Positions 7,193 through 21,278 of a DNA stretch of 36,987 bases are shown here, one piece after another; the stretch's first letter is position 1, and each line of letters begins with the position of its first letter. Below the pieces are notes generated by a model. It worked only from the letters and a program-made list of their open reading frames with translations, ran no database searches and was not told the origin of the DNA. Location of the stretch: contig CALXHO010000019.1 of assembly GCA_944388125.1 (NCBI GenBank), positions 1-36,987 on the forward strand, in the 5' to 3' direction. The stretch comes from an uncultured Gemmiger sp. (GTDB taxonomy: Bacteria > Bacillota > Clostridia > Oscillospirales > Ruminococcaceae). The position numbers were made by a program, and so were the translations under genes.

Positions 7193-7236
7193 CGCGGAGG
7201 GCAGGCGGTTTAGTCGTCCCGGGCGGCAGAAGATGC

Positions 7237-7285
7237 AAAAAACGGCTGCCTGTCCATCCCCGGAAAGGGGCGGGCAGACAGCCGT
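7237..7285 (-). terminator. Strong intrinsic terminator of the desulfurase-thiI-cinA-fusion operon
   Basis: A long stem (outer arms 7242-7255 and 7272-7285, pairing ACGGCTG with CAGCCGT, and an inner CCCC/GGGG) is followed on the minus strand by TTTTTT. It lies 20 bp after the stop codon of the 1204-aa gene. Confidence 0.93.
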
Positions 7286-7305
7286 CCTGCAGAAAAAATC
7301 GGTGC

Positions 7306-10300
7306 TCAGTAGGTGGTGATGGTGGTGCCGGGATAGTAATGTCTGAGAATGTCCTGATAGTTCCAGCCGTTGTTGGCGTAGCCGACGGCCCCCCACTGGC
7401 TCATGCCGCAGCCGTGGCCGTAGCCGTACACATCAAAGATGAAGCAGTCGGTGCCCGCGTCATAGCTCACCGTGAAACACTGGCTGCGCAGGCTGCGGCC
7501 GTCCACGCTCTGGCGGGCCAGCAGAGTTTCCCGGAACCAGGTGCCCCGGCAGGTGGTGTTGGGGCCCTCATCGGGGCCGATCTGCATCTTGGTGACCCAG
7601 CCGTACTGGTTGGCCGACAAAATCTTGAACCAGTTGTTGGGGTCCACCCCCGACAGGTCGATGCCCAGCACATCCAGGATGCGCTGCTGTACCGTGGCGC
7701 GGGAGAAACGGGCCGTGCCCGATGTGGCGCCGCTGGTGTGCCAGTTGGTGGCAGTGGTCTCATCATAGGGGCTGTCCACGGCCTGCAGCCAGGCACGGTC
7801 GCTGCCCCACACATCCGCCGCAGAGGCCGTGCCCTTGGAGGCCGACGCAAAATAGGGCGTGAAGCAGACATTGCCGTTGTATGTAACCAGCACCCGGGCC
7901 ATCTCCTGGGCCGCAGCCGTGGCGGCGGCACCCGGTGTGGCGCCCGCCACCGACGGATACCCGCCCTGGCTCAGGATCCAGCAATGGGCCGCCACACACT
8001 GTGCCTTGTAGGCCTCGGCGGGCGCATTGGGGCCCAGCTCGTTCTGGGCGATCATGGCCAGGCAGGTTACCAGATCCATGGTCTGCTGGGTGCCGTTCAT
8101 CGTCACATTGATGGTCTCCGCCGGGGCGGAAGAACCGCCGCCGGTGCTGCCCGAGTTGTCAGTACTGCCCGAGCTGCCGGAATCCGTTCCGCCCGTGTTG
8201 GACGAGTCGCTGCCGCCCGAACCGTCCGTGCCTCCGGTACTGCTGTCCGGGCCAGGCGTGGGCGTCGGGGTCGGGGTGGAAGTGATGCTGTCCACCGAGA
8301 CGGTCTGCTCCGGCAGAGTTCCCTCCGCGCCCTGGTTCAGGTCGGACTCGGAGGCACCGGCCTCCCCTGCCTTGTCGGTCAGACCGGCCAGCAGCTGGTC
8401 GGCACTGGTGATCAGGTTATCGGTTTTCTGCTGCAGATCCTGGATGCTCTGGCTCAGATCGGTGGAGGAGGCAGCCTGGCCGGGCTGCCCCTCCTGATTG
8501 GGCTGGATATTCTCGCTGCCGGCGCCGGTCTGCTCCCCGGAGCCCGAGGCCGTCTTGGCGCGGATGGTGCTGACACCGGCGTACCACTCCAGCTGAGCCT
8601 TGAGCAGCGAGGCCGTGTCGGGCGCCTCCTGACCGGATGCCGCATACTGGGTGGCTGTGAGCAGCGGGCTCTCCTGCATCTGGATGGGAGCGGCAGCCAG
8701 CTGGGCGTTTTCATCCTCCTCGATCATGCGGCCGGTCATGCAGAAGTTGACCCCCGCCACATCGGAAGCGCCCACCAGCGTCAGGAAGCTGGAGCCGTCC
8801 TCCACATCAATGTCGGTATCATAGAGCGAGCGCATGTGCGCCCCCAGAACAAAGCTCAGGTAATCGGAGTAGGAGGACAGGTCGCCGTAAGCCGTGGGGG
8901 CAAAACCGCCTTCCTCCGCCGGGTCCTGATACCACACCGCCATGACTTTGTAGCGGTAGGTGGCATCCCCCAGGTAGAGGGTGAAGCCGGCATTGTCCCG
9001 CAGCGTCTCAATGCTGGAAAGTTCCGACAGCGAGACACTGTCCATGTTCAGTACCGTGTTGGACGGCATGGAGGACCCCAGATAGCTGGTTCCCTCGATC
9101 TGTGGCCGGGGCTCGGCGGCATCCTCCGCTGTGGCGCCCACCACGTAGACAAGCTGTCCCTCCCAGCCGGGGAAGGCCAGATAGCCCACAACGCCTTCCT
9201 TTTTCCGGCTGGCGTTGGCCAGGTATTCGGAGGCGCTCTCATCAAACTGGGCGGTGCCGTATCCCTTGGGGGAGGGCTTGCTGCCCAGATTGTTGCTGAA
9301 ATAGTACCACAGCCCCACAGCGCCCGCCGCCAGCAGCAGCAGGAAAATGACGAACACCGCCGTCATGGTCCGGCGCTGTTTGCGCTCGGTTCGTTCAATG
9401 GCCGCCAGACTGCGGTTTTTGGTGGGATCCAGCACATCGTCCGGAGAATCGGCATCGTACAGGTGCTTGGCCGCGGCCTGGAAATCCTCCAGGCTGCGGG
9501 GTTCCTGGGCATCGTCGGCCTTCTGGGCGGCACGGATGGTTTCCGGGTCCAGGGAGGCGGTGAAATCGGGCACGTCATCGTCCAGAATGGAGTGCTGGCG
9601 GGCCCGGGCCACCTCCTTGGCCGCGTCGGGGGAAATGCGCACCGTGCCGGTGGCCTGGGAGGCCGCCGGACGCTGGGGCGCAGCCGTCCGCGGCTGGGCC
9701 GAGCTGCGGGCTGCCCGGTAGGCTGCCGCCGCCTGGGCACCGCCCGTGGTAAAGGTCAGCGGCGTCTCGCCGTCGCTGTCCCCGCCCGCAGGCTGCTGGG
9801 CCGAGGCCTGGGGCCGGGGCGTTGCGGCAGTGTCCACCGGTGTCTCAAAGGTGATGGTCCCGGTGGGTGCGCCGCTGCGGGCGCCGGCGGTGACCGGCGT
9901 GCGGTTGGCGGAGTCCTTCCAGTCCTCCTCCGCTGCTGCCCAGGCGGAAGCCGCCACCGAGGCCGCATTGTCGGGAACGGGGCGCTTGGACACGGTCTTG
10001 GCCGCCTTGGTCGCAGCCCGGACCGATGCCCCCACTGCCGCTGCGGCAGCCGCCTTGGCAGCCTTGGGGATCTGGGCGGTGTTGAAGTCCAGCATGGGTT
10101 CAAAGTCCGCCTTGGTGGCGGTGTTCTTGCGGCGGCGCAGGGAGAACCGGGTGGTGTCCCCCGGCTTTTGCTGGCCCGCCTGGGAGACCAGCAGCAGCGG
10201 CCGCTCGTGACCGGGGCGGAACTGGATGGTTCCCTGGCTGAACTTGAGGCCCAGCGCGCGGCGGCGTGCCAGGTCCAGGATGTTGTTGCCGATGGCGGCG

Positions 10301-10920
10301 TCGCTCATTTCGGGGCTGACGGCACAGGCCACCGCCCCCCGCTTGTCGCACAGCAGCACAAAGGGCGCCTGGCCCACCGTGGCAGGCATATAGATGGCCG
10401 CATAGTCGGCCTGGCCCACCTGCATGGCAAGCTGGGCACGGCCTGCGGCGGCCTGCATCACATCGCCGGGGAACTTCTTGAGCAGGGCCGGCGGAGTGAT
10501 GATCTTGCGGGCGTTGGCGGCGTTGGCGTAGGTCTGGGTGCCGAAGTCAAACACAGCCTCGCTGTGATCCAGCGGCTGCAGCAGGCTGCCCAGCAGGCGG
10601 CCGGTGGTCTCGTCGGCAGCGACGATAAGGCGGCGCTTTTTGACCAGGGCATCCAGCGCGGCCTGGGCCAGGCTGATCTCCCCCATGCCGTAAAAGGCAT
10701 CGCCAAAGCGGGCACGCAGCTTCTGCGCCCATTTGTCGCAGTGCTCGTCCGCCATCGCCTGTGTGGGGGCCGATGCCTGCACGCAGACGGCAAATTCGCC
10801 GTCCCGCTCCAGCAGGCGCAGTCCCGGGCATCCATCGTCCTGCGCCGCGCGCAGAATGGCCGTGACCTCCGCCGAGGTCAGACCGAACACACGCAGGATA
10901 CGCAGTTGTGTCGACACCAT
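7306..10920 (-). CDS. CinA-like pseudoamidase / membrane segment / sortase-like / SpoIID (LytB) fusion protein
   Basis: A 1204-aa multidomain membrane protein. Residues 1-230 align along their length with residues 178-410 of the neighbouring CinA, including LRILRV~TLRVLG, LRARFGDAFYGM~LRQRLGDNAYDV and TYANAANARK~TYAEAAKTAL. The amidase motif TAESCTGG has become AADETTGR, so the catalytic Ser is Glu104. Residues 231-515 are an Ala/Pro/Thr-rich linker. A basic run (RTERKQRR) precedes one membrane segment at 519-541, giving N-in, C-out topology. Residues 560-735 resemble a class B sortase lacking His, Cys and Arg. Residues 741-935 are a Thr-Pro and Gly/Ser linker. Residues 945-1204 are a SpoIID/LytB domain with IAQNELG (catalytic Glu961 kept) and YGHGCGMSQWGA. 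GGAGG lies about 7 nt before the ATG. It is the last gene of the operon, 72 bp after cinA. SpoIID is known as a lytic transglycosylase; the role of this fusion is unknown. Confidence 0.9.
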   Translation of the reverse strand: MVSTQLRILRVFGLTSAEVTAILRAAQDDGCPGLRLLERDGEFAVCVQASAPTQAMADEHCDKWAQKLRARFGDAFYGMGEISLAQAALDALVKKRRLIVAADETTGRLLGSLLQPLDHSEAVFDFGTQTYANAANARKIITPPALLKKFPGDVMQAAAGRAQLAMQVGQADYAAIYMPATVGQAPFVLLCDKRGAVACAVSPEMSDAAIGNNILDLARRRALGLKFSQGTIQFRPGHERPLLLVSQAGQQKPGDTTRFSLRRRKNTATKADFEPMLDFNTAQIPKAAKAAAAAAVGASVRAATKAAKTVSKRPVPDNAASVAASAWAAAEEDWKDSANRTPVTAGARSGAPTGTITFETPVDTAATPRPQASAQQPAGGDSDGETPLTFTTGGAQAAAAYRAARSSAQPRTAAPQRPAASQATGTVRISPDAAKEVARARQHSILDDDVPDFTASLDPETIRAAQKADDAQEPRSLEDFQAAAKHLYDADSPDDVLDPTKNRSLAAIERTERKQRRTMTAVFVIFLLLLAAGAVGLWYYFSNNLGSKPSPKGYGTAQFDESASEYLANASRKKEGVVGYLAFPGWEGQLVYVVGATAEDAAEPRPQIEGTSYLGSSMPSNTVLNMDSVSLSELSSIETLRDNAGFTLYLGDATYRYKVMAVWYQDPAEEGGFAPTAYGDLSSYSDYLSFVLGAHMRSLYDTDIDVEDGSSFLTLVGASDVAGVNFCMTGRMIEEDENAQLAAAPIQMQESPLLTATQYAASGQEAPDTASLLKAQLEWYAGVSTIRAKTASGSGEQTGAGSENIQPNQEGQPGQAASSTDLSQSIQDLQQKTDNLITSADQLLAGLTDKAGEAGASESDLNQGAEGTLPEQTVSVDSITSTPTPTPTPGPDSSTGGTDGSGGSDSSNTGGTDSGSSGSTDNSGSTGGGSSAPAETINVTMNGTQQTMDLVTCLAMIAQNELGPNAPAEAYKAQCVAAHCWILSQGGYPSVAGATPGAAATAAAQEMARVLVTYNGNVCFTPYFASASKGTASAADVWGSDRAWLQAVDSPYDETTATNWHTSGATSGTARFSRATVQQRILDVLGIDLSGVDPNNWFKILSANQYGWVTKMQIGPDEGPNTTCRGTWFRETLLARQSVDGRSLRSQCFTVSYDAGTDCFIFDVYGYGHGCGMSQWGAVGYANNGWNYQDILRHYYPGTTITTY

Positions 10921-10992
10921 GGTAACACCTCCAAAGTCCTTTGCTTGGGTCGTAACATCCGCCGCATCCGGCGGCAGACGGGAAACATCCTC

Positions 10993-12300
10993 TCAGAAAT
11001 CCAGCGCCTCGGGATGGTCGAGGCAGTCGGATGTGGTCAGCACCGCGTCGGGCACATCCAGCCCCAGGGCCATCCGGCGCAGCATGTCCAGAGCATACAT
11101 GGCGGCGCGGGTGCGGATGATGGCCCGCTCCCGGTAGCTGCCCAGGGTCAGGCGCATGACCCAGACCTTGCCGCTGCGCACATCGGTGCCGCCCAGATAA
11201 ACGGTGCCCACCGGTTTGCCGGGAAGTGCCCCGCCGGGGCCCGCTATGCCGGTGATGCCCACCGCCAGCTCGGCGCCGGAGGCACGCTGTGCCCCCAGGG
11301 CCATGGCCGCGGCCACCGGCCCCGACACCACATTGAAGCGCTCGATCATGGCGGGATCCACCCCCAGCAGGGCAGTCTTGGCGGCCTCGGCATAGGTGAC
11401 GAAACCGTAGCCGAACACCTCGCTGGAGCCGGGGACGTTGGTAAGCTTTTCGGCAATGAGACCGCCGGTGCAGCTTTCCGCCGTGGAGGCATGAAGTCCC
11501 TTCTCCCGCAGGGTGCGGACGACGGTGTATTCCAGTCCCGGCACATCCACATCGTAGGCATTGTCCCCCAGACGCTGGCGCAGACGGGCCACCGCAGCGT
11601 CGCAGGCGGCCTCGGCACTGGCCTCGTCGGGTTCCCGGGCAGTGACGCGGATCTCGCTCTCCCCCACCTTGCAGTAGATGGCCACTGTGGGGTTATTGCT
11701 CTCAAACAGATCCCCCACCTTGGAGGCGATGCTGCTCTCGCCGCCCAGCACCCGCAGCGTCCGGCTGCGGATGGTGCAGTTCTGCCCCGCTTCCAGCTTG
11801 GGGCGGACCTGCTCGGTCCACATGGCTTTCATCTCCCGGGGGACGCCCGGCATCAGCACGGCGCAGTGGCCGTTCTCATCCTCGAACCAGGCGCCGGGCG
11901 CCGTGCCGTGGGCGTTGGGCAGTTTATGGCCTTTCACCGGCACCATGGCCTGCTTGCGGTTGTTGGGGGTAGGCTGGCGGTTGATGCGGGCAAAAAAGTC
12001 CACGATCTTCTGCCATTCTTCCTCGTCAAACTGCAGCGTGTCCCCGAAGGCCTCGGCTACCGTCTCCTTGGTCAGGTCGTCCTCGGTGGGGCCGAGCCCG
12101 CCCGAAAAGACCAGCAGCTCACTGCGTTCCTTCGCCTCCCGGACCAGGTCCCGCAGCCGCTGGACATTATCCCCGACGACATGCTGATGCAGCACACTGA
12201 TGCCCAGCTCGGCCAGTTCCCGGCTGAGAAACTGCGCGTTGGTGTTGACAATGTCCCCCAGCAGCAGTTCGGTGCCCACACAAATGATTTCGGCGTTCAA
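10993..12300 (-). CDS. cinA: CinA family protein, nicotinamide-nucleotide amidohydrolase
   Basis: Bifunctional-type CinA, 435 aa, acting on NMN (deamidation, NAD recycling); the N-terminal domain in the family hydrolyses ADP-ribose-type substrates. Residues 1-170 are the MoaB-like domain (EIICVGTELLLGDIVNTNAQ, FSGGLGPTEDDLTKE, LMPGVPREMK). Residues 178-255 are the KH-like middle domain. Residues 256-410 are the amidase with TAESCTGG (catalytic Ser276), SEVFGYGFVTY and GITGIAGPGG. All key residues are present. The start is a TTG (12298-12300) giving MNAEIICVG, with GGGAGG about 10 nt upstream that overlaps the thiI stop region. The gap to thiI is 18 bp. The next gene downstream encodes a degenerate copy of its middle and C-terminal domains. 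Confidence 0.96.
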   Translation of the reverse strand: MNAEIICVGTELLLGDIVNTNAQFLSRELAELGISVLHQHVVGDNVQRLRDLVREAKERSELLVFSGGLGPTEDDLTKETVAEAFGDTLQFDEEEWQKIVDFFARINRQPTPNNRKQAMVPVKGHKLPNAHGTAPGAWFEDENGHCAVLMPGVPREMKAMWTEQVRPKLEAGQNCTIRSRTLRVLGGESSIASKVGDLFESNNPTVAIYCKVGESEIRVTAREPDEASAEAACDAAVARLRQRLGDNAYDVDVPGLEYTVVRTLREKGLHASTAESCTGGLIAEKLTNVPGSSEVFGYGFVTYAEAAKTALLGVDPAMIERFNVVSGPVAAAMALGAQRASGAELAVGITGIAGPGGALPGKPVGTVYLGGTDVRSGKVWVMRLTLGSYRERAIIRTRAAMYALDMLRRMALGLDVPDAVLTTSDCLDHPEALDF

Positions 12301-12318
12301 ATTCCGTCCGCCTCCCTC

Positions 12319-13512
12319 TCAGAATTCCGGTTCGCCCCCGATATGAATGGGGATCTTTTCCACATTGGCGGCCGCTTCCGCTTCCAGCTCCTCCAGCCCG
12401 GGCATGGCGGCCTCGGCTGCCTCGATCTCCTCGAGAGAGGGCCGGGTCTTGGGGTGCGGCGGGGTGAAGATGGTGCAGCAATCCTCATAAGGCTCGATGG
12501 AAGTCTCAAAGGTGCCGATCTCCCGGGAACGGGCGATGATCTCGGTCTTGTCCATGCCGATGCAGGGACGCAGCACCGGCAGGCTCTGGGCCGCATCGGT
12601 GCAGGCCAGGGCGGGCAGCGTCTGGCTGGCCACCTGGGCCAGGCTCTCACCGGTGACGAGGGCCTCCATGCCGGTGGTCTCCGCCACCCGCTTGGCGATG
12701 CGCAGCATGCTGCGGCGCATCAGGACGGTGAACAGCACATCGGGGGCGTTGTCCCGGATATACTCCTGGGGCTTGGTGTAGGGCACCACAAACAGCACGC
12801 AGTTGCCGGTGTACTCACTGATGAGCCGGGCCAGAGACACCACCTTGAGCTTGGCCCGCAGGCTGGTGTAGGGCGGCGAGGCAAAGTGGATGTGATGCAG
12901 CGCCAGACCACGCCGGGCCATGCACCAGGCCGCCACGGGGCTGTCGATGCCGCCGGACAGCAGGTTGAGGGCGCGGCCGCTGGTGCCCACAGGCAGGCCG
13001 CCTGCGCCGGGGACCTTGGGGCCGTGGATGTAGGCGCCGAAGTCCCGGATCTCCACCATGATCTCCAGCTGGGGGTTGTGGACATCCACCCGCAGATAGG
13101 GGTGCTTGGACAGCAGATAGGCGCCCAGTTCCCGGCAGAGTTCGGGGCTCTTCATGGGATAGGTCTTGTCCGAGCGCTTGGCCTCCACCTTGAAGGTCTT
13201 GATGCCCCGCAGCGTCTGGCCCAGATAGGCCTCGGCGGTGGCGCAGATGCTGTCGAAGTCCTTGTCGCAGACGGCGGCACGGCTGAGCTTGACGATGCCG
13301 AAGATCTTGGAAATGCGGCGGAAGGCCTCGTCCATGTCGATGTCGTCGGACAAAGGCTGGATGAAAACGGTGCTCTGGGCCTGGCGGATCTTGAACTCGC
13401 CCAGGTCGGCAAGGCGGTGGCGGATGGCTTTGTTCAGCTTTGCCTCAAAGGTTCCGCGGTTGAGGCCTTTCAGGGTCATTTCGCCCTGGTAAGCCAGGAT
13501 GATCTCTTTCAT
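12319..13512 (-). CDS. thiI: tRNA 4-thiouridine synthase / thiamine sulfur transferase ThiI
   Basis: Cytoplasmic enzyme that adenylates U8 of tRNA and inserts sulfur from a cysteine desulfurase; in many bacteria it also supplies sulfur for the thiamine thiazole ring. The protein is 397 aa. The N-terminal ferredoxin-like and THUMP domains (about 1-165) lead to a PP-loop ATPase with LLSGGIDSPVA (PP-loop at 186-192). The SIEPYEDCCTIF segment carries conserved cysteines. There is no C-terminal rhodanese domain, as is usual for Firmicutes ThiI. The start is the ATG at 13512 (MKEIILAYQGEMTLKG), preceded by a weak AAAGG; a TTG nine bases upstream adds MPI only. The desulfurase gene lies directly upstream, 40 bp away, the same pairing as nifZ-thiI in Bacillus. 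Confidence 0.97.
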   Translation of the reverse strand: MKEIILAYQGEMTLKGLNRGTFEAKLNKAIRHRLADLGEFKIRQAQSTVFIQPLSDDIDMDEAFRRISKIFGIVKLSRAAVCDKDFDSICATAEAYLGQTLRGIKTFKVEAKRSDKTYPMKSPELCRELGAYLLSKHPYLRVDVHNPQLEIMVEIRDFGAYIHGPKVPGAGGLPVGTSGRALNLLSGGIDSPVAAWCMARRGLALHHIHFASPPYTSLRAKLKVVSLARLISEYTGNCVLFVVPYTKPQEYIRDNAPDVLFTVLMRRSMLRIAKRVAETTGMEALVTGESLAQVASQTLPALACTDAAQSLPVLRPCIGMDKTEIIARSREIGTFETSIEPYEDCCTIFTPPHPKTRPSLEEIEAAEAAMPGLEELEAEAAANVEKIPIHIGGEPEF

Positions 13513-13552
13513 AATTGGCAACTACCTTTTCTTTTATGTGTAATAGGGTGGT

Positions 13553-14689
13553 TCAGATATGCTGAAGTTCCTGCATACCGGCGCGCAGGCCCGCCAGCAG
13601 GGCGTCCACATCGACCTCGTCGTTGTCGGCGCAGAAGCTCACCCGCAGCGCCGTGGCGATGGCGGTCCCGTCACAGCCCATGGCCTGCAGGGTATGGCTG
13701 GGTTCGCCCTTGTCGCAGGCGCTGCCCCCTGAGACGTAAATTTTGCGGTCGCTCAGGTAGGTAATGAAGGTCTGGCTGTTGACGCAGTTGGTGGAGAAGT
13801 TGAGCACTTCCGGCACGGCGCCCTCGGGGGAATGGATGGTCACCCCGGGCAGTTCGGCCAGGCCCGCCCGCAGCCGGGCGTTGAGGGCGGCGGCTGCTCT
13901 GGCGTTGGCTGCGATCTTTTTGGCACCCTGCTCCGCCGCCACGCCCAGGCCCACCGCGTAGGGCAGGTTCTCGGTGCCGGGGCGGATGCCCCGCTCCTGA
14001 TGCCCGCCCAAGTAGGGCGGCACCAGATGCTGGCGCTGGTTCTCACACAGGTACAAAGCGCCGATGCCCTTGGGGGCATGGACCTTGTGGCCCGACACCG
14101 CCAGGGTATCCACGTGGGAGAGGGTCTTCATGTTGAGGGGGATGCGCAGCCACGCCTGCACCGCATCCACATGGACGGCGGTGCGGCTGTTTTTGGCCTT
14201 GACCCCGTCGGAAAAGCGCTTGATGTCCTGCAGGGCCCCCGTCTCATTGTTGACGGCCATGCAGCAGGCCAGCACGGTGTTTTTGTCCACATTCAGATGG
14301 CCGTCGGCTTCGGGCAGGATCTCCACCACCTCAAATCCCTGGTCCTTCAGGGCGCGGATGGGGCGCTGGACGCTGGGATGTTCAAACCCGGTGACCACGA
14401 TCCGGTTGCCCCAGGCCCTGCGGGCCATGGCGGCGCCCAGAATGGCAAGGTTGTTGCTCTCGCTGCCGCAGGCGGTGAAGTAGATCTCTTTGGCGGCACA
14501 GCCCAGACTGCGGGCGACCTTGCCCCGGGCGGAGGCCAGCTGCTGTTCGGCCAGGATGGCCGGCTCATACAGGCTGGACGGATTGGCCCAGCTGTTGCGC
14601 ACTGCCCGGTCGATGGCATCCGCCACCGCCGGGTCCACCATGGTGGTGGCGGCGTTGTCCAGATAGTGCAGTTCGGCGTTTGTTCGCAT
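13553..14689 (-). CDS. Cysteine desulfurase, NifS/IscS-type partner of ThiI
   Basis: PLP enzyme that takes sulfur from cysteine and hands it to acceptors as a persulfide. The protein is 378 aa. It begins YLDNAATTMVDPAV, has the GSESNNLAI cofactor loop, EHPS with His104, the PLP lysine Lys202 in VSGHKVHAPKG, RPGTENLP, and the active-site Cys325 in SGGSACDKGEPSH. The start at 14689 (MRTNAELHYL) has AGAGG upstream; an apparent 64-residue extension to 14881 lacks homology and covers the promoter. It is the first gene of desulfurase-thiI-cinA-fusion and fits the dedicated desulfurase (NifZ-like in Bacillus) for tRNA thiolation. No SUF or ISC scaffold gene is nearby. Confidence 0.94.
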   Translation of the reverse strand: MRTNAELHYLDNAATTMVDPAVADAIDRAVRNSWANPSSLYEPAILAEQQLASARGKVARSLGCAAKEIYFTACGSESNNLAILGAAMARRAWGNRIVVTGFEHPSVQRPIRALKDQGFEVVEILPEADGHLNVDKNTVLACCMAVNNETGALQDIKRFSDGVKAKNSRTAVHVDAVQAWLRIPLNMKTLSHVDTLAVSGHKVHAPKGIGALYLCENQRQHLVPPYLGGHQERGIRPGTENLPYAVGLGVAAEQGAKKIAANARAAAALNARLRAGLAELPGVTIHSPEGAVPEVLNFSTNCVNSQTFITYLSDRKIYVSGGSACDKGEPSHTLQAMGCDGTAIATALRVSFCADNDEVDVDALLAGLRAGMQELQHI

Positions 14690-14785
14690 ACCTTGCGGTT
14701 CCTCTTTTCCCCTCGATTGTGCCGGGTCCCGCCCGGGGCGGATGTGCTTCCGGCACTTAAAAATGTACAAACCAATACAGAATAG

Positions 14786-14814
14786 ATTATACACGGTTGC
14801 CGGGGCAAACACAA
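14786..14814 (-). promoter_or_regulatory. Promoter of the desulfurase-thiI-cinA-fusion operon
   Basis: On the minus strand a perfect TATAAT (14786-14791) with TTGTGT (14809-14814) 17 bp upstream. The -35 is weak, and the leader before the start is about 90 nt. Confidence 0.65.
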
Positions 14815-14848
14815 GGACACCCCACAGGAAAAATGTCGCCTGCCGTAC

Positions 14849-14896
14849 AAAAAGCCCGCCGCAGTGCAGGGGAATCCCCATGGCACCGCGGCGGGC
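14849..14896 (-). terminator. Intrinsic terminator of the aldo/keto reductase gene
   Basis: A 9-bp perfect stem GCCCGCCGC / GCGGCGGGC (14854-14862 with 14888-14896), with an inner GGGGA/TCCCC pairing, is followed on the minus strand by TTTTT. It lies just after the stop of the 14919-15932 gene. Confidence 0.9.
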
Positions 14897-19262: not shown

Positions 19263-21278
19263 TCAGCCCAGGTTCATATCCACACCGCCGGGAACGCCGC
19301 TGACCTTGCCGGTGCTGGTGTACTGCCAGATGTCATAGCGGTACTTGAAATCCAGCGAATCCCGGTACTGGGCGATCCAGATGCGGTACTTGCTGATGTT
19401 GGCGTAGTTGAGCGAGTTATAGAACCAGCTTGCGTAGGAGTAGACGCCCGCCGCATAGCCCGCATTGCGGATGGTCTCGCAGAAGGCGACGGCGCAGGCG
19501 GTGCGCTCGGCGGCGGAGATGGTATCGGCACGGCCGGTATCACCCGCCACCTTCTCGGTGTCGTAGTAGACGCCCAGGGGCAGGCCGTAGCCGCTGCAAA
19601 GGCTCAGGACCATGCTGGCTTCCTCCACGGCCTCAGCCTCATTGACGGCCTGGCTGTAGAAGTAGACGCCAACCTTCAGGCCGGCGGCGGTAGCACCCTG
19701 GATGTTGCGGCGGAAGGTGGAATCCTCGACCAGGGCGCCGCTGCCGTAACCGCGGTAGCCCACGCGGATGATGGCAAAGGTGATACCGTCCGCAGCGACT
19801 GCGTTCCAGTCGATGTTGCCCTGATACTTGGAGACGTCGATGCCCCGGGCCGTCTGGTTGAGGGCGCCGTCCGCAGCAAAGGTGTAGACATTGCCCTGAA
19901 TGACCTGGGTGCCGGTGACAGGCTGATGGTTCGCGGGATCGTAGTAGTAGTTCTTGCCGTCAATGTTCTGCCAGCCGGTATATTCATATGTAATCTTCTC
20001 GCTGGAAGAGACGTCAAAGCCGTAGCCCGCCAGATCCGATGCCTTGATCTCACCGGGCCAGCCCGCCATGGGATCGCTGCTGGGGGTGGGAGTCACCGGC
20101 GTGGGCGTGGGAGTTGCCACCGGGGTCGGAGTGGGGGTAGCCTCCGGTGTCGGAGTGGGAGTGGGTGTGGGCGTGGGTGTCGGGGTGGGCGTCGGCGTGG
20201 GAGTTGCCTCCGGCGTCGGGGTCACTTCCGGGGTGGGGGTCGGGGTCTGCTCCGGCACGGGGGAGGGAGTTTCCTCCACCACACCGTTTTCATCCAGCGG
20301 CTGCACTTCGGAACTGGTATCCGGCTCATTGTTGCCGTGGCGCAGAGCCGGGCCGGAGAGCCCGTTCAAAGAGAACATCCGCAGCGCTGCCCCGGCCGCC
20401 GCATAGGTCGCGGCTCCTTCCCGCTTGGCGCTCACCAGATTCTTGTTGTCGTCGTAGACAGGCGTATAAGGAGAGGTGGAGCCGTCCTTCATCATCAGAT
20501 GGCCGTCCGAGCTGAGCTTGGCGGTGTAGACCGTCACGCGGGAGACTTCCTTCTGGCTGGAGTCGGCGTAGGCAACCGTATCCACGATCTCCTCCTGCAC
20601 TACGGAGCCTCCGCCGTAGCTGGAGTCTTCCTGGCTTTCCACGACCTGACTGGACTGGACGATCTTATCCTTGACCGCCTCCACGTCCGCCTTGTACTCC
20701 ACCTTTTCCTGAACCGTGACCTCCACGGCGGCAGGCAGACGGTAGCCTTCCACTTCTGGGAAGCTGACGGTATAATCGCCCGGCTCCACATCCTCAGCCA
20801 GCATGGTGCCGGTTTCGGTGTCCACCGGGTAGGCGGTGGCATTGCCGTCCTTGTCGGTGACGGTCACGTCCAGGGCAATACCGGTCAGGGGGATCTTGGT
20901 GAGCTCCTCCGCGTCGGTACCGGCCTCATTGACCTCCACCGTGGAGGAATCCTCCTCCGCGTTTTCCTCCGAGGCGGCGGGCAGGGTGTACAGCTGGACA
21001 CCGATGTCCTGCTGCACCACCGACACGTCACACAGCACATCCTGCACCGGGGTGGGGGTGGGGCTGGGGGTCGGGGTGGGGGTGGCTGCCGTCTCAAGGG
21101 TCGGCCCCGCCGTGGGGGACGTCTGTTCCGGCACGGCATTCAGAAAGGCCGACGCCATGACGCTGACGCCGATGCTGGCACACAGCAGCACCGCAACGCC
21201 GCCCATGGCCACTTTGTACAGCGGCAGCCGCTGGAAAGTGCTGCCGGAAAAACATTTCATGACTTCGCGTTTTTTCAT
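19263..21278 (-). CDS. Cell-surface GH25 lysozyme with Thr-Pro stalk and wall-binding-like repeat
   Basis: Predicted secreted or membrane-anchored muramidase, 671 aa. Residues 20-48 form an N-terminal membrane anchor or uncleaved signal. Residues 63-77 and 338-400 are Thr-Pro linkers. Residues 130-195 look like a prealbumin/SpaA-type beta domain ([19 protein letters not shown]). Residues 433-475 form one cell-wall-binding-like repeat ([14 protein letters not shown], then [12 protein letters not shown]). Residues 476-671 are the GH25 domain: [14 protein letters not shown] with Asp481, [10 protein letters not shown], the active-site pair in YYDTEKV (Glu575 the likely acid), and [12 protein letters not shown] to the VDMN end. 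The start at 21278 follows AGGAG 12 nt upstream; MKCF six codons later is possible. It has its own promoter. The enzyme probably cleaves the organism's own wall, but a toxin or defence use is not excluded. Confidence 0.92.
20076..20263 (-). repeat. Thr-Pro codon repeat inside the GH25 gene
   Basis: Low-complexity tandem codons for Thr-Pro (about 28 TP units, some broken by Glu-Ala or Val-Ala). Such runs can vary in length by slippage. It encodes the stalk between the anchor region and the enzyme domain. Confidence 0.85.

Follow-up and report, generated by a model that had tools for sequence, protein, structure and literature searches.

A Gemmiger membrane protein joining remnants of CinA and a probable class B sortase to a SpoIID domain

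Organization of the fusion gene and its locus

The window, that is, the whole stretch of DNA analysed here, comprises 36,987 nucleotides of contig CALXHO010000019.1 from an uncultured Gemmiger sp. (assembly GCA_944388125.1). Its minus strand contains a fusion gene of 1204 open codons (7306..10920), which begins with an ATG preceded by GGAGG and codes for a protein of 1204 amino acids, composed of a CinA remnant with KH and PncC domains, a single membrane segment, a probable decayed class B sortase and a SpoIID domain. The gene is delimited by its open frame and by intact orthologues (L003–L006, L040 and L041), and all features described below lie on the same strand unless stated otherwise. An origin of the frame by chance, by a frameshift or by an assembly error was looked for and rejected, because intact frames of the same architecture occur in the isolate Gemmiger gallinarum DSM 109015 and in three metagenome-assembled Gemmiger genomes, and the median ratio of nonsynonymous to synonymous substitutions (dN/dS) is below 1 in every part of the protein.

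The N-terminal part consists of a KH domain (residues 6–80, 10681..10905, PF18146) and a PncC or nicotinamide mononucleotide (NMN) deamidase domain (residues 81–226, 10243..10680, PF02464). Searched with the whole protein, the Pfam models CinA_KH (residues 7–78) and CinA (residues 83–174) scored 26.7 and 21.9, just short of their cut-offs of 27 and 23.5, and both were exceeded with residues 1–240 taken separately (29.5 and 24.7); PF02464 also passed its cut-off in a further search. The NCBIfam model PRK00549 for CinA covers residues 5–174 with an E-value of 4.4e-17 and 62.2 bits, missing its equivalog cut-off of 379, and no Pfam match to the MoCF/COG1058 ADP-ribose pyrophosphatase domain was found in the fusion at E ≤ 1. 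A structure model of the region, which is of low confidence, yielded only CinA proteins among its Foldseek matches at E ≤ 0.001 (13/13), and the KH domain matched CinA with both Foldseek and VIA-align. The motif TAESCTGG of live CinA reads AADETTGR at residues 101–108 (10597..10620). Using the site residues and numbering given for Thermus thermophilus CinA in PMC4246079, the Glu-Ser pair of this motif is changed to Asp-Glu, Lys301 to Asn136, and Thr340 is lost, and Tyr296 is retained as Tyr131. Judged by these profiles and residues, the part from about residue 6 to 226 is a CinA-derived pseudoenzyme rather than an active CinA. The first-pass annotation, made from the sequence alone, was thus right in proposing a dead CinA region, although one part of its CinA-like region of residues 1–230, the KH domain, lies outside the amidase.

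A linker rich in Ala and Pro (residues 227–515, 9376..10242), predicted to be cytoplasmic, connects the CinA remnant to the only hydrophobic stretch of the protein at residues 519–537 (9310..9366, Kyte–Doolittle value 2.59), in agreement with the one membrane segment proposed before. The domain behind it gave no Pfam match at E ≤ 0.1 and only an E-value of 0.21 with the class B sortase model TIGR03064 (NCBIfam). In profile–profile comparisons, ten middle domains of the Gemmiger type reached 98.4% against six CinA-fused sortases and 98.8% against sixteen live fused sortases, compared with 1.9% and 0.2% for two control domains, and all nine Foldseek matches of its low-confidence model at E ≤ 0.001 were sortases. 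The catalytic Cys is lost (LTLVGA instead of TLSTC), as is the His of the YGHN motif, and Arg731 is kept. From these comparisons and motifs, the middle domain (residues about 560–742, 8695..9243) is most probably a decayed class B sortase, here termed pseudo-sortase; the genome itself codes for four further sortases.

After a second linker rich in Ser, Gly and Thr (residues 743–935, 8116..8694), the protein ends with a SpoIID/LytB domain (residues 936–1204, 7309..8115), which matches TIGR02669 over residues 949–1202 with 109 bits (NCBIfam, cut-off 83.3); the Pfam SpoIID model remained at 16.7, below its cut-off of 23. The catalytic Glu961 (codon 8038..8040) is preserved and corresponds to E101 of Clostridioides difficile SpoIID, which PMC6221140 describes as catalytic and required. 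The domain appears to be live, as had been suggested, and the family assignment together with the Glu residue points to a membrane-anchored glycan-cleaving enzyme, with the CinA remnant presumably located in the cytoplasm and SpoIID outside the cell.

Directly upstream of the fusion lies an intact full-length cinA gene (10993..12300), coding for MoCF, KH and PncC domains with intact motifs according to Pfam and NCBIfam profiles; like the KH domain and the sortase origin of the middle domain, it had not been recognized before. It is followed upstream by two conserved neighbours, thiI for tRNA uracil 4-sulfurtransferase (12319..13521, TIGR00342 over cut-off) and a gene for a NifS-like cysteine desulfurase (13553..14881), which is assigned by synteny and reached no NCBIfam equivalog cut-off. 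Loci were checked for 36 of the aligned fusions, and 34 of them, all except L067 and L103, show the order nifS, thiI and CinA(-sortase)-SpoIID. Two genomes (G110 and G189) have the stand-alone CinA beside the fusion reduced to a gene of 190 aa for PncC only (L042:9541-10110 and L043:9823-10392). In another family of the order, ThiI has itself been joined directly to a PncC domain whose residues are intact (L091:3846-5567, 574 aa), an additional fusion at the thiI-cinA junction, distinct from the one described here.

On the other side, a terminator-like hairpin (7235..7291, −38.2 kcal/mol, z −4.29) with a U-tract after the stem separates the 3' end of the fusion gene from an ftsW/spoVE-like gene; it is absent from the output of a pattern scan, which accepts only loops of 3–8. 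An open frame of 2141 codons on the plus strand (7339-13764) runs antisense to the fusion gene, cinA and thiI, and we regard it as a side effect of GC-rich codon usage rather than a gene. Another probable wall hydrolase encoded in the window is a GH25 (lysozyme-like) protein, in which long TP repeats and a choline-binding-like repeat occur (19263-21278).

Related fusions and the state of their domains

The first-pass annotation knew of no described protein of this architecture and proposed a search for the same domain order in related genomes. At least 47 of 197 genomes of the family contain a SpoIID match within an open frame of more than 850 aa. Among the 41 of these frames examined (including that of the window; those of G062, G091, G109, G114, G150 and G175 were left out), 39 have an N-terminal CinA profile match, which is weak in L067, and two (G018 and G067) have none. 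CinA and SpoIID are therefore joined in one frame in at least 39 of the 197 genomes, usually with a sortase between them. The idea of a protein confined to a single genome was discarded, and the Gemmiger fusion is one degraded member of a large protein family. Apparently split fusions in G008, G012 and G152 were not counted as true splits, their pieces ending at or near contig edges.

We aligned 39 fusions, namely that of the window, L004, L006 and those of 36 fetched genomes, leaving out the near-copies L003, L005, L043 and L048. With Pfam at E ≤ 0.01, SpoIID was detected in 33, CinA_KH in 28, CinA in 25, MoCF in 24 and Sortase in 18 of them; the NCBIfam models matched SpoIID_LytB in all 39, CinA in 37 and class B sortase (TIGR03064) in 29. 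Exactly one hydrophobic segment was found in 38 fusions by a threshold of our own, and two in L074. The Glu residue of SpoIID is invariant in 39/39.

The deamidase was scored by five residues (Glu and Ser of the motif, Tyr296, Lys301 and Thr340), Tyr296 having been added after a table based on four residues had been seen. By this test, the fused deamidase is intact in eight of the 39 fusions (L058, L062, L063, L065, L066, L092, L093 and L094), and only L062, L063, L065 and L066 have both intact MoCF motifs and intact deamidase residues. Of the 31 genomes with a broken fused deamidase, 29 contain a separate CinA (27 identified by profile search, L004 and L006 by the gene beside the fusion), and the site residues are intact in all 25 separate copies looked at (those of G022, G038, G048 and G149 were left out). 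The sortase retains both Cys and His in 16 fusions, 15 of them with a broken deamidase, and has lost both in all ten Gemmiger-type members; L063 combines a dead sortase with an intact CinA, and L096 shows no sortase motif whatsoever. Taken together, PncC and sortase are both live in one fusion, only PncC in 7, only the sortase in 15 and neither in 16. A strict reciprocal loss of CinA and sortase was considered and is not claimed (Fisher p 0.11, few independent events).

Possible forerunners of the fusion were found in a sample of 117 genomes of the order, 7 from the Gemmiger family and 110 from other families. In at least eight of the latter, CinA lies in a frame of at least 600 aa, and all seven examined (G242 was left out) carry a sortase, as recognized by Pfam in L084, L087, L088, L089 and L090 and by catalytic motifs in L085 and L086. 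L084, L085, L086, L088 and L089, the last of which lacks MoCF and has PncC only, have their deamidase and sortase residues in place. In L087 and L090, the deamidase residues and the sortase Cys are present, but the YGHN pattern did not detect the His. In these two, the SpoIID protein is encoded by the next, overlapping gene: a CinA-sortase-Big_9 frame (L087:3904-9022) or a PncC-sortase-Big_9 frame (L090:5172-9999) precedes a SpoIID gene with a Big_2 domain. This arrangement is a possible precursor of the single-polypeptide fusion, and the series as a whole can be read as leading from CinA beside thiI via CinA-membrane segment-sortase and SpoIID as a neighbour to one polypeptide. At the level of the class, 148 genomes, 131 of them with a CinA match, contained no CinA frame longer than 532 aa other than that of the window. 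A further variant (L100:4187-8077, 1297 aa) consists of a decayed CinA, a sortase with Cys and His and five Big_2 stretches without SpoIID; its genome (G022) also codes for L067, in which sortase and SpoIID share a frame and CinA is only weakly recognizable.

The intact CinA upstream of the Gemmiger fusion most simply represents a local duplicate of the fused CinA, whose fused copy would then have become the pseudoenzyme, because trees of both KH+PncC and SpoIID place the Gemmiger copies beside L063. For KH+PncC, the 15 stand-alone CinA rows of the Gemmiger clade form the sister group of L063's intact fused CinA (97/87). Of the other 20 stand-alone CinA rows of the family, 18 cluster with rows from two other families of the order (97/93). 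The bootstrap of this tree had not converged, and the pseudo-CinA sit on a long branch (2.0), which makes their own position in it uninformative. For SpoIID, it is the ten Gemmiger-type fusions that have L063 as their sister (98/90).

One alternative is that the fusion is simply the SpoIID with which these bacteria sporulate, a partner of SpoIIP during engulfment. This appears decidedly unlikely to us. Of 46 searched genomes that have long SpoIID frames, 41 contain SpoIIP and 41 contain Spo0A over cut-off, the source genome having both (the set contains two genomes without CinA in the frame and five with unexamined frames and leaves out G150, whose SpoIID frame has 1183 aa), and the sporulation-specific model spore_II_D (TIGR02870) matches all 39 aligned fusions at E ≤ 0.01. 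The Gemmiger fusion, however, stays far below the equivalog cut-off of this model (100 vs. 234.75 bits), and the source genome contains a better-scoring SpoIID frame of 463 aa with 207 bits, itself below the cut-off. Moreover, SpoIIP and a Spo0A over cut-off are both missing from one genome (G017, 96% complete) whose fusion has intact deamidase residues, and another (G041, 94% complete) keeps the fusion without SpoIIP. Sporulation is not the whole answer for the fusion, because G017 retains it without SpoIIP and Spo0A and the source genome has a second SpoIID. The source genome has Spo0A and SpoIIP (both over cut-off) as well as another frame with a SpoIID domain, at C3:61052-61795, C9:33392-34003 and C83:3691-4458. 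To our knowledge, Gemmiger is not known as a spore former. What PMC7924749 says on engulfment genes includes nothing on fusions.

Constraint on the CinA remnant and its possible role

Selection on the individual parts was estimated by the Nei-Gojobori method as median dN/dS of 15 pairs from six Gemmiger species. The KH domain is the most constrained part of the protein (0.088), followed by SpoIID (0.138) and PncC (0.228), which is close to the stand-alone CinA (0.232); the Ala/Pro-rich and Ser/Gly/Thr-rich linkers reached 0.342 and 0.513 and the membrane stretch 0.517. The remnant has also acquired positions of its own. Cys31 (in GCxGL), Trp64 and Asp125 are shared by 15 pseudo-CinA sequences from eight genus codes, and Asp103 by 14 of them, and none of these four residues is found in nine live CinA. 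The dead region is as constrained as a live CinA and therefore probably has a job; constraint and shared new positions together are as expected of a domain that has taken on a new function. The retained, non-catalytic role proposed earlier is supported by these data.

They also bear on the possibility that the CinA and sortase remnants are passengers, kept only to provide a start codon, a membrane anchor and spacing for SpoIID. The CinA and sortase sites were indeed lost repeatedly, lineage by lineage, while the SpoIID Glu remained invariant; L064 and L075 have lost PncC and retain just N-terminal pieces of CinA, and the pseudo-sortase evolves at a rate near that of the linkers (0.36). A passenger would drift like the linkers, however, so the constraint on KH and PncC, equal to that of stand-alone CinA or stronger, counts against it, as do the new positions kept across eight genus codes. 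We therefore consider a mere passenger role to be unlikely.

The annotation had instead suggested that the dead domain senses a pyridine nucleotide. In this case, the pseudo-CinA would bind NMN, nicotinic acid mononucleotide or another pyridine or ADP-ribose nucleotide in the cytoplasm and gate SpoIID outside. Inactive enzymes serving as sensors are a known theme, and the domain is strongly constrained. The phosphate-contacting Tyr296 is kept in the Gemmiger fusion and in 11 of the 15 pseudo-CinA (Trp in L044, L049, L051 and L070), and the Thr-Gly of the old amidase motif in all 15. Against this, the Gemmiger fusion has lost Lys301 and Thr340, the contacts to the nicotinate ring, and the ADP-ribose site of MoCF is absent; moreover, the Lys301 column varies between N, S, A, V, R and K among 12 tabulated Gemmiger-type fusions. 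Nucleotide sensing in this form is not supported by the residues, and we regard it as doubtful.

We rather favour, with slightly less than even confidence, that the pseudo-CinA is a non-catalytic docking or dimerization module which positions or regulates SpoIID in a descendant of a trifunctional fusion. The ancestor would have combined a cytoplasmic CinA (ADP-ribose pyrophosphatase, KH and NMN deamidase), one membrane segment, and an extracellular class B sortase and SpoIID. On the lineage to Gemmiger, the sortase would probably have died first; the fused CinA may then have been duplicated locally, the upstream copy keeping catalysis and the fused copy shedding the MoCF domain and the deamidase site. 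In the T. thermophilus CinA dimer (PMC4246079), a common two-fold axis relates the KH domains as well as the NMN-deamidase domains. We propose a docking or dimer module because precisely these domains of the dimer axis were kept and MoCF was shed. The leftover KH-PncC pair could associate with itself or with the adjacent CinA and in this way position or regulate SpoIID, which would cut the wall outside, the dead sortase acting as a stalk. The gene order, the place of L063 in both trees, the constraint and the shared new positions speak for this reading, and so does the distribution of CinA: no other PF02464 match was found in the eight genomes with an intact fused deamidase, whereas 29 of the remaining 31 have one.

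Several points weigh against this interpretation. Glu-187 of the KH domain, which normally enters the ADP-ribose site of the partner subunit, is replaced in the pseudo-CinA (GIGES to GLTSA), so the module cannot complete this site in the known way. The pseudo-sortase is barely more constrained than the linkers (0.362). The relation between a broken fused deamidase and a separate CinA gives a Fisher p of 7e-7 with five residues when kinship is ignored; only two independent pairs are left on supported branches, and nearly all pairings show the expected direction without significance. Two of the eight genomes with an intact fused deamidase are incomplete (G039 64%, G050 86%). No CinA other than the broken fused one was found in G032 (91% complete) and G026 (87%), and when only the four residues Glu, Ser, Lys and Thr are scored, 11/39 fusions are intact, of which three (L055, L061 and L097) occur together with a separate CinA.

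A more far-reaching version, which seems rather improbable to us, would have one transmembrane polypeptide, evolved in a family of gut Clostridia, couple the cycle of nicotinamide adenine dinucleotide (NAD), protein anchoring to the wall by sortase B and wall cutting; in Gemmiger, the dead CinA would form heterodimers with the adjacent live CinA and relay pyridine-nucleotide turnover or CinA occupancy through the membrane to the hydrolase. The wider role of CinA, which has been associated with competence and drug tolerance, is still puzzling. The pattern of live parts from genome to genome makes two ideas testable, a role of CinA at the membrane or wall and the regulation of wall hydrolysis by a pseudo-CinA, and within the lineage, the stages between an intact fused enzyme and a pseudoenzyme under constraint can be compared.

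Comparison with known systems

Each of the three domain families is known, but the literature that could be searched revealed no single membrane protein that physically links a NAD-recycling enzyme, a sortase and a glycan-cleaving enzyme. A full-text search, which judged matches by title and the start of the abstract and left most subscription journals and the architecture lists of domain databases outside its reach, returned no fusion of CinA with SpoIID or a sortase, nor of a sortase with SpoIID, and a combined search showed nothing relevant among the matches listed. The novelty assumed at the outset thus stands as far as this literature goes, although the protein is no singleton and belongs to a large family.

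Compared with CinA/PncC proteins, as represented by the bifunctional ADP-ribose pyrophosphatase/NMN deamidase of T. thermophilus (PMC4246079), the Gemmiger fusion has the same order of KH and PncC, a profile match and a fold match of low confidence. It differs by the absence of MoCF, the loss of the catalytic Lys and Thr, and the attachment to a membrane segment, a sortase remnant and SpoIID. With class B sortases, it shares the profile–profile match, a low-confidence fold match and the retained Arg731, whereas Cys and His are lost and the domain is fused to CinA and SpoIID. The CinA-sortase proteins of other families (L084–L090) show the same order of CinA (or PncC), membrane segment and sortase, and nifS and thiI lie upstream in L084, L085, L087, L089 and L090 as in Gemmiger (the sequences of L086 and L088 are too short); unlike the Gemmiger fusion, they contain no SpoIID in the frame. 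Finally, the TIGR02669 domain, the catalytic Glu and the motif YGHG.GMSQ are common to the fusion and to the SpoIID/LytB family, represented by C. difficile SpoIID (PMC6221140), and like the members of this family, the fusion is predicted to act outside the membrane. In contrast to C. difficile SpoIID, its catalytic domain is preceded by more than 900 residues, made up of the CinA and sortase remnants, the linkers and the membrane segment, and its score falls below the spore_II_D cut-off.

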